Part shown: piece after piece, positions 39,084-41,695 of the stretch
Numbering within the stretch: the stretch's first letter is position 1
How the letters are laid out: every line of letters begins with the position of its first letter
Assembly: GCA_000471045.1 (NCBI GenBank)
Contig: KI301992.1
Coordinates: 1,202,069 to 1,266,068, forward strand
Direction of reading: 5' to 3'
Length of the DNA: 64,000 nucleotides
From: an actinobacterium LLX17
Lineage (GTDB): Bacteria; Actinomycetota; Actinomycetes; Propionibacteriales; Nocardioidaceae
Made by a program: the position numbers and the translations under genes
Notes under the pieces: model-generated
Database searches by the model: none
What the model was told of the DNA's origin: nothing
What the model saw: the letters and a program-made list of their open reading frames with translations, nothing else

Positions 39084-39647
39084 TCAGTCCAGCTCCTCGC
39101 GCAGGCGAGGCTCGGTGCGGTTCTGCGGCTTGAGGCCGACCTTGTCGGCGTAGAAGTCGCGCACGATCTGCATGTCGGCGCGGAAGTCGCCGGACGGCAC
39201 GAACGACGGTCCGAAGCCCATCGTCTTGGTGGCGGGCTCGAAGAACGCGAGGGTCACCGGCAGGTTCGCGTCGCGGGCGATGCGCAGGAAGCCGGACTTC
39301 CAGAACTCGCCCGCGGAGCGGGTGCCCTCCGCGGCGATGACGAGCCGGAACTCCTCGTCGTCACCTGCTTCCTCGACCAGCTCCTGCACGACGCCGCCGG
39401 CGTTCTGCCGGTCCAGCGGCACGCCCCCGAGTCCTCGGACGAGCCAACCGACGGGACCGGAGAACAGCTCCTTCTTGACCAGCACGCGCGGGTGGGCGCC
39501 GCCGTGCCACATGACCAGGAGCATCGTCAGGAAGTCCCAGTTGGACGTGTGGGGTGCCCCGACGAGCACACCTCGTTGCGGCACCGAGCCGACCATCTCG
39601 TACCGCATCACGCGGGCGATCGTGCGGGCCAGGCGCTGACGCATCAT
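39084..39647 (-). CDS. 1-acyl-sn-glycerol-3-phosphate acyltransferase family protein
   Basis: 187 aa PlsC-type acyltransferase. The usual HxxxxD motif appears as HTSNWDF, the second block as [24 protein letters not shown], and the third as IAAEGTRS. A membrane-associated role in phospholipid synthesis is expected. Start ATG 39647 is favoured because TAGGCT on the minus strand (39655-39660) is 7 nt upstream. That box begins with the TAG stop codon of the preceding methyltransferase gene. Confidence 0.88.
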
Positions 39648-39657
39648 GAGCAGGAGC

Positions 39658-40479
39658 CTAAGGGGCGGGGTCACCCTGAGGCCGTGTGGCCCAGAGCGCG
39701 ACCGCCAGGGACGACGCTGCGTTGAGCGAGTCGACACCGTGGGACATCGGGATCATGACGGTCCGGTCGGTCCGCGCCATCGTCTCCGGCTGCAGGCCGT
39801 GTCCCTCGGATCCCACGACCCACGCGAGGTGCTCGGGGAGGTCCGCGACCAGCTCGTCCAGCGTCATCGCGTCGGGCTCGAGCGCCAGGCCCGCCACCGT
39901 GAACCCGCGGTCGCGGAGCAGGTCGAGCCCGCCGGGCCACGGATCGATCCGCGCCCACGGCAGGCTGAAGACGGTGCCCATCGACACCTTGATCGCGCGC
40001 CGGTAGAGCGGGTCGGCACATCGCGGCGTCACGAGCACCGCGTCGGCGCCGAGGGCAGCCGCAGCCCGGAACGCGGCACCGACGTTGGTGTGGTCGGCCA
40101 GGTCCTCCAGCACCACGATGCGGCGGGCACCCTCGACGACCTGCTCGGGCGGCAGCGGGGCGGGCCGGTTCACGGCCGCCAGCGCGCCACGATGGACGTG
40201 GAACCCGGTCAGCGACTCGATCGTGGCCTCGTCGAGCACGAAGCACGGTGCGTCGACGTCGTCCAGCACGCCGGCGAGGCTCTCGAGCCAGCGCGGGGCC
40301 AGCAGGAACGAGCGCGGCTCGTGCCCGGCGGCGACCGCGCGGCGAATGACCTTCTCGCCCTCCGCGAGGTAGAGCCCACGGTCGGTCTCGAGGCGGCGAC
40401 GCAGATTGACGTCGCGCAGGTTGGTGTAGTCGTGGAGTCGTCCGTCGGTCACGTCGTCGAGTCGAAGGATCGTGGCCAC
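39658..40479 (-). CDS. TrmH/SpoU family RNA 2'-O-methyltransferase
   Basis: 273 aa. An N-terminal RNA-binding domain ([22 protein letters not shown]) is followed by a SPOUT knot with [28 protein letters not shown] and [21 protein letters not shown] (motifs 1-3). Members methylate tRNA or 23S rRNA ribose; the exact site is not readable. GTG 40479 is preceded by TAACCT 6 nt upstream on the minus strand. Confidence 0.93.
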
Positions 40480-40497
40480 GCCGTTAGGTTAGGCGGC
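40480..40497. promoter_or_regulatory. 18-bp bidirectional leaderless promoter (TrmH gene / YbhB gene)
   Basis: The whole gap is 18 bp. TAGGTT on the plus strand (40485-40490) is 7 nt before the ybhB-like ATG. TAACCT on the minus strand (40486-40491) is 6 nt before the methyltransferase GTG. The two -10 boxes share five base pairs, so only one polymerase can occupy the site at a time. Confidence 0.75.
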
Positions 40498-41025
40498 ATG
40501 AGCCTGGACCGACCTGTCACCCCGGACCCGTACCCCCTCCTGCCGGCCGTGCCGAGCTTCACGGTCACCAGCGACGACGTCACCGACGGCCAGCCGCTGA
40601 AGGACGACCAGGTCAACGCCGGAGGCGACACCTCGCCCCAGCTGTCCTGGTCGGGAGCCCCCGAGGGCACCAAGTCGTACGTCGTCACGTGCTTCGACCC
40701 CGACGCCCCCATCGTGTCGGGCTTCTGGCACTGGACCGTCGTCGACATCCCCGCGGACGTGACGAGCCTCGCGGCCGGCGCGGGCGCCAACGACGAGTCG
40801 CTCCCCGGCCGCGCCTTTCACGTGCGCAACGACGGCGGCGGCAAGGCGTTCATGGGCGCCGCTCCCCCGGCAGGCGACCAGGTGCACCGCTACTTCTTCG
40901 TCGTGCACGCCGTCGGCGAGGAGAGCCTCGGCGTCGACGCCGGCGCATCCCCCGCGGTCGTCGGCTTCAACCTGGCGTTCAAGACCGTCGGCCGCGCCAT
41001 CCTGCACGGCACGTACCAGCACTGA
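40498..41025 (+). CDS. YbhB/YbcL family Raf-kinase-inhibitor-like protein
   Basis: 175 aa PEBP-fold protein: [13 protein letters not shown]-type start ([20 protein letters not shown]), [17 protein letters not shown] and the C-terminal [20 protein letters not shown]. Ligand unknown. No signal peptide. It starts 18 bp from a divergent methyltransferase gene. Confidence 0.93.
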
Positions 41026-41047: not shown

Positions 41048-41695
41048 TCAGCGTTCCTCGAGCAGCTCCCCGAGCGGACGCGGCTCGGCCCAGCGCTCCT
41101 GCTGCAGCATCGGACGGTCGTAGAAGCGCTCGACGGGGCCGAGGCAGAGGACAGCGACCGGTTCGGCCCCGTCAGGCAGCTCGAGCAGCCGGCCCAGCTC
41201 CACCGGGTCGAACAGCGAGACCCACCCCATGCCCAGGTGCTCGGCACGCGCGGCCAGCCACATGTTCTGGATCGCGCAGGCCACCGACGCCAGGTCCATG
41301 TGCGGCATCGTGCGGCGGCCGAACACGTGACGGTCGCGATCGTCACCGAGCGCGACGACCAGCAGCTCGGCGCAGTCGCGGATGCCCTCGACCTTGAGCC
41401 GCAGGAAGTCCGCGGCCCGCTCCCCCAGCGCCTCGGCCGTGAGGTCGCGCTCGACCGCCACCAGCTCGGCGATCGAGTCCCGCAGAGCGGGGTCGACGAT
41501 GCGCAGGAAGCGCCACGGCTGCATCAGACCGACGCTCGGCGCCAGGTGCGCCGCCTCCAGCACCCGCTGCAGCACCTCGGGCGGCACCGCACCACCGGCG
41601 AAGTGCCGCATGTCGCGACGCTCCGCCATCACGCGGTAGACGGCGTCGCGCTGGTCGGCGCTGAAGCGGTAGGACTCGGTGGGCAGGTCCGTCAC
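41048..41695 (-). CDS. bluB: 5,6-dimethylbenzimidazole synthase
   Basis: 215 aa nitroreductase-fold flavoenzyme that fragments FMNH2 to make the lower ligand of B12. BluB hallmarks are present: RRDMRHF near residue 27, APSVGLMQPWRF, and GWVSLFDP. Last gene of the ABC-NfeD-SPFH-BluB operon; its GTG start overlaps the SPFH stop (GTGA). Functionally it fits the B12-dependent MetH at the left end of the window, though other cobalamin genes are not here. Confidence 0.9.
   Translation of the reverse strand: MTDLPTESYRFSADQRDAVYRVMAERRDMRHFAGGAVPPEVLQRVLEAAHLAPSVGLMQPWRFLRIVDPALRDSIAELVAVERDLTAEALGERAADFLRLKVEGIRDCAELLVVALGDDRDRHVFGRRTMPHMDLASVACAIQNMWLAARAEHLGMGWVSLFDPVELGRLLELPDGAEPVAVLCLGPVERFYDRPMLQQERWAEPRPLGELLEER

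Follow-up and report, generated by a model that had tools for sequence, protein, structure and literature searches.

How two divergent genes can both be transcribed when almost no DNA lies between them is the question raised by one locus in the window, that is, the whole 64,000-nucleotide stretch analysed here, which belongs to a 3.0-Mb genome of the actinobacterium LLX17 assembled as a single contig. At this locus, a SpoU-family RNA methyltransferase gene on the minus strand and a YbhB/PEBP family gene on the plus strand point away from each other, and the 18 bp at 40480-40497, GCCGTTAGGTTAGGCGGC, are the sole DNA between the methyltransferase GTG and the YbhB ATG. Judged by comparison with related genomes, these 18 bp very probably act as one bidirectional promoter recognised by the main sigma factor, from which both mRNAs would be leaderless.

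Architecture of the intergenic region

Both neighbours are real genes, as their matches to PF00588 and PF01161 show, and alignments of YbhB orthologues begin at the methionine of the ATG at 40498. The elements of the locus are the following:

40480..40497, both directions: the entire 18-bp gap between the genes, a proposed bidirectional promoter plus discriminators; among the 40 pattern-bearing orthologous loci, 35 have 18 bp and 5 have 17 bp
40485..40491, both directions: core TAGGTTA (matching TANNNTA, and so TANNNT on each of the two strands); kept in 39 of 39 abutting orthologous pairs
40485..40490, plus strand: predicted -10 box TAGGTT of YbhB, 7 nt from the ATG at 40498
40486..40491, minus strand: predicted -10 box TAACCT of the methyltransferase, 6 nt from the GTG at 40479
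39658..40479, minus strand: SpoU-family RNA methyltransferase, GTG start (PF00588, E 3.1e-33)
40498..41025, plus strand: YbhB/PEBP family protein, ATG start (PF01161, E 2.6e-37; TIGR00481 above the cut-off)

The extent of the gap, the sequences of both boxes and their overlap of five base pairs (40486-40490) agree with the first-pass annotation of this DNA, as does the leaderless spacing that it had described for both divergent genes. This spacing measures 7 nt to the ATG and 6 nt to the GTG. Counted from the first T of TANNNT, the start codon lies 13 bp away on the plus strand and 12 bp away on the minus strand. The two start codons, which are also the predicted transcription starts, are 19 bp apart (18 bp in the five orthologues, of 40, whose spacer is 17 bp). 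Each promoter has its upstream (-35) region in the partner gene: the first codons of the methyltransferase lie there for the plus promoter, and those of YbhB for the minus promoter. A scan of 40300-40700 for promoters of the Escherichia coli type gave no match.

Conservation at orthologous loci

YbhB is present in 146 of 149 genomes of the family, and the named relatives retrieved with the protein belong mostly to Aeromicrobium and Nocardioides, which makes Aeromicrobium very probably the genus of this genome. Upstream DNA was compared at 106 distinct YbhB loci, and the double-leaderless pattern was found at 40 of them, in 30 distinct spacers. Selection by the pattern fixes the T, A, T and A columns in these 40 loci, so that these columns are uninformative alone; within the set, the distances are kept, the flanking bases differ between loci, as do two of the three bases in the middle of the core, and the base that follows the first TA of the core is G in every case. 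Counting by adjacency is independent of the pattern: all 39 loci in which the two starts lie at most 30 bp apart carry TANNNTA at double leaderless spacing. A Shine-Dalgarno core, defined as AGGA, GGAG or GAGG at 4-10 nt before the start, occurs in none of the 40 shared spacers in either direction, that of the window included, compared with 30 of the 66 YbhB genes that do not have the shared form.

Loci in which the two genes are apart

Naturally separated genes serve as controls for the base that makes the core two-way, namely the final A of TANNNTA, which belongs to the minus box only. Many Nocardioides and related loci have the methyltransferase start about 1.3 kb upstream of YbhB. Of the 66 loci that lack the shared form, 32 carry TANNNT 6-7 nt upstream of the YbhB start, followed by C in 19, G in 12 and A in 1. 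The two-way A is thus found in 40/40 shared spacers against 1/32 one-way promoters, with a Fisher value of 1.4e-19 that ignores kinship between loci and, as the loci are kin, overstates the independent evidence.

The same contrast is seen within Aeromicrobium, where six loci were read as non-abutting (G019, G086, G121, G048, L056 and L047). The methyltransferase lies about 11 kb from YbhB in G019 and G086, 85 bp away in G048 and 36 bp away in L056; it is on another contig in G121 and was not found within the locus in L047. All six YbhB genes retain TANNNT at 6-7 nt, and all six have G in place of the A of the shared form. The displaced methyltransferase in turn retains TAGGGT at 6 nt before its GTG in four loci (G019, G086, G121 and G048) and has TAGAGT at 6 nt before an ATG in L056. 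Because the separated genes each keep a TANNNT of their own, both boxes look functional individually.

These loci bear on the possibility that only one direction is a promoter, the other box being a by-product of symmetry and the second gene being transcribed from inside its partner. Such an arrangement appears very improbable, since a TANNNT stands 6-7 nt before either gene at loci where they are separated, and the base specific to the minus box stands in 39/39 abutting pairs against 1/32 one-way promoters. Across the loci compared, the two-way base appears to go with genes that touch. Its retention while the genes abut and its absence where they are apart suggest that bidirectionality itself may be under selection. 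A tree of both proteins, built for 60 loci by a quick method, nests the separated Aeromicrobium cases among the abutting ones, which makes the shared form probably the older state in the genus, lost at least twice.

In one Nocardioides locus, L049 (174-1436, minus strand), the siroheme synthase CysG lies between the SpoU methyltransferase and YbhB. This is the only such locus with the gene identified; the gap is about as large in other Nocardioides loci, and the abutting Aeromicrobium loci have no gene between.

Occurrence of the pattern at other gene pairs

A further question is whether the arrangement is peculiar to this pair. Searched for in full, as CAY-N5-TANNNTA-N6-RTG, the pattern has a single match in the window, whereas 100 shuffles give 0.01 on average. 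Bare TANNNTA also occurs once in the 64 kb, in this gap, where the shuffle mean is 3.22; the core alone is therefore not in excess, and the excess lies in its placement between two start codons. Genomes were then scanned for TANNNTA with 5-6 nt on each side to start codons (right-spaced), with 9-10 nt spacers as a wrong-spaced control and the pattern read backwards as a second control. The genome of the window has six right-spaced sites and no wrong-spaced ones, and all six lie exactly between the starts of two divergent long open reading frames (ORFs), all twelve of which have Pfam families:

UppS-type prenyltransferase and haemolysin III
M13 peptidase and siderophore-interacting protein
SpoU methyltransferase and YbhB
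NDK and alpha-amylase family
BrkB family and AidB-type acyl-CoA dehydrogenase
phosphorylase superfamily and TetR

Two other explanations of the core are weighed by these sites: that TANNNTA is the operator of a regulator, or that it is a chance match in a short gap. Some matches elsewhere do resemble operators, at genes for TetR or ribbon-helix-helix-like proteins. The unrelated gene pairs, by contrast, have nothing in common but the core and how far it lies from the two starts, and the chance expectation in the window is as low as stated above. On these grounds both the operator and the chance readings, which have scarcely any probability left, were rejected.

Across the 39 genomes of the genus, 188 right-spaced sites stand against 12 wrong-spaced ones, and the pattern read backwards gives 93 and 126, respectively, so that the ratio of forward to backward sites is about 2 at the right spacing and 0.1 at the wrong one. 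Taking the first site of each of 16 of the 39 genomes, and requiring ORFs of at least 130 aa with GC content at third codon positions (GC3) of at least 0.74 on both sides, 12 of 16 sites are flanked by ORFs, whereas none of the 10 wrong-spaced sites compared (out of 12) is. Other genus pairs join 5-formyltetrahydrofolate cyclo-ligase with a 458-aa protein that has no NCBIfam match, and TrmB with a protein whose likeness to mycothiol-dependent enzymes is weak (below the cut-off). The signal fades beyond the genus. By pattern counts alone, the 75 genomes of the family outside the genus have 101 right-spaced, 23 wrong-spaced and 173 backward right-spaced sites, and 22 genomes of the class have 54, 20 and 130. 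Many genomes elsewhere in the phylum exceed neither control. In a scan of the phylum, 29 of 30 fetched loci were scored, and 6 of the 29 have ORFs of at least 90 aa on both sides.

Some sites depart from the exact arrangement. The partner gene starts about 60 bp off in L213, and its start has moved in L215 and L221, so that one side may be leadered in these cases.

The 23-bp site of L213 (1029-1051), CATGTCGCTACGGTAGAGCCATG, occurs also in G124, G144, G126, G115 and G134, on either strand. A long ORF opens at one side of it, the nearest start on the other side being the distant one just mentioned; perhaps this site is a bidirectional promoter leadered on one side. A second recurrent example is the TAGGCTACACA core, retained at the pair of M13 peptidase and siderophore-interacting protein in several Aeromicrobium genomes (loci L163, L175 and L212 among others). 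In L215 and L221, this core stays despite the different partner start.

Relation to known promoters

Both ingredients of the arrangement, the bidirectional -10 element and the leaderless TANNNT, are already known. In bidirectional promoters, the -11A and -7T of one strand pair with the -7T and -11A of the other, divergent starts are 7-25 bp apart and most often 18 bp, and T at -18 is the most frequent base without being required (PMC10268837). TAGGTTA at 40485-40491 is a -10 element of this kind, its -11A and -7T pairing reciprocally between the strands, and the predicted start distance would lie within that range and near its usual value. With the predicted starts, both strands have G rather than T at -18; position -19 is T in the minus promoter (from the A of the ATG) and C in the plus promoter. 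The likeness to the prokaryotic bidirectional promoters described by Warman and Grainger thus consists in one near-symmetric -10 element held in common and starts at nearly the usual distance. Unlike them, the present promoter would have both starts at start codons; it occupies the entire intergenic region, and the pair is kept across most of the genus.

The individual boxes resemble leaderless actinobacterial promoters. A TANNNT consensus about 12 bp before leaderless gene starts has been described for high-GC groups (PMC3160421), and TANNNT serves as -10 box in Propionibacterium acnes (PMC3848588) and at leaderless starts in Mycobacterium tuberculosis (PMC10937400). The same features are found here, with TANNNT at 12-13 bp from its first T to an ATG or GTG start and no Shine-Dalgarno core; the difference is that two such promoters point in opposite directions from one core. 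In M. tuberculosis, divergent promoters in close juxtaposition are described as common, and prpD and Rv1129c are adjacent and divergent with mapped leaderless starts on both (PMC3898074). The present pair is like them in being adjacent, divergent and leaderless on both sides, although the starts are mapped there and predicted here. No title naming double-leaderless bidirectional promoters was found in the literature searched, most subscription papers lying outside its coverage.

Proposed mechanism and the question of competition

In the proposed mechanism, RNA polymerase with the main sigma factor would bind TANNNTA in either orientation. Transcription would begin with the first base of the start codon on that side, A at 40498 for YbhB (ATG) or G at 40479 for the methyltransferase (GTG). 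Both mRNAs would hence be leaderless, and ribosomes would load at the 5' end of the mRNA. Contacts further upstream would fall, for each promoter, in the first codons of the partner gene. By geometry, one polymerase at a time could occupy the site.

The first-pass annotation had gone further, proposing that the two directions compete for one polymerase site and that expression of the methyltransferase and of YbhB is thereby coupled inversely or balanced. Overlapping -10 boxes for two leaderless divergent genes are well supported by the comparison, and exclusion of a second polymerase would follow from their geometry; the regulatory consequence is not implied. The five E. coli bidirectional promoters tested have basal activity too low for competition, and one direction is repressed only when the other is strongly activated (PMC12825309). 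That competition is the purpose of the promoter, with more of one transcript lowering the other, is accordingly unlikely, even though geometry forbids two polymerases simultaneously and in E. coli a strongly activated direction can repress its opposite: little competition was seen at those basal promoters, the six gene pairs of this genome share no common function by family name, and the methyltransferase and YbhB are separated in some relatives. The site would be a clean place for testing whether polymerase competition matters.

A broader reading is that double-leaderless bidirectional promoters of 17-19 bp form a selected regulatory class in Aeromicrobium and, more thinly, in the family. A seven-base core would set the transcription start, the translation start and the direction for two genes, the first codons of each gene would be the upstream promoter DNA of the other, and bidirectionality itself would be selected. 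This reading is tentative, at somewhat less than even chances. Several observations weigh against the single promoter proposed for this gap. The excess in the genus over the backward control is twofold (188 against 93), and outside the genus the backward control outnumbers the pattern (173 against 101 in the family, 130 against 54 in the class). Among 15 further genus sites, selected by the authors, both ORFs begin at the exact starts in 6. One unpaired YbhB promoter, L084, carries the A, and TANNNTA persists in L213, L215 and L221 although the partner start has moved. The order of events in the tree depends on branches with support of 91-93, and the starred branches alone force one change. 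No -35 element was recognised in the partner codons by the E. coli-type scan, and conservation there is inseparable from codon constraint. It is the backward control outside the genus and the reliance of the event order on unstarred branches that weaken the idea of a selected class.

Bidirectional promoters are known mainly through maps of start sites; here, genome comparison alone points to selection on the two-way base. The transcription and translation starts of two genes would hang on about seven bases, and TANNNTA between start codons offers a simple search pattern for such promoters in unstudied bacteria rich in leaderless genes.

Flanking genes and further observations

Two other genes adjoin the pair:

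39084..39737, minus strand: acyltransferase-family ORF that follows the methyltransferase downstream, in the same orientation; as listed, it overlaps the methyltransferase end
41048..41695, minus strand: BluB (5,6-dimethylbenzimidazole synthase), convergent with YbhB

The methyltransferase and the acyltransferase-family ORF possibly form one operon, and YbhB, facing the convergent BluB, stands alone on its side.

Matches to the wrong-spaced control recur in L197, L198, L199 and L201 (near position 1501) upstream of one TetR-like gene, in similar DNA; the protein begins MAGRPRSFDRD, and the recurrent site is possibly the operator of this gene. In L243, L244 and L246, short proteins start at CATATGG/CCATATG palindromes. 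We take these proteins to resemble ribbon-helix-helix antitoxins, and the palindromes may be operators for autoregulation and not promoters like those described here.
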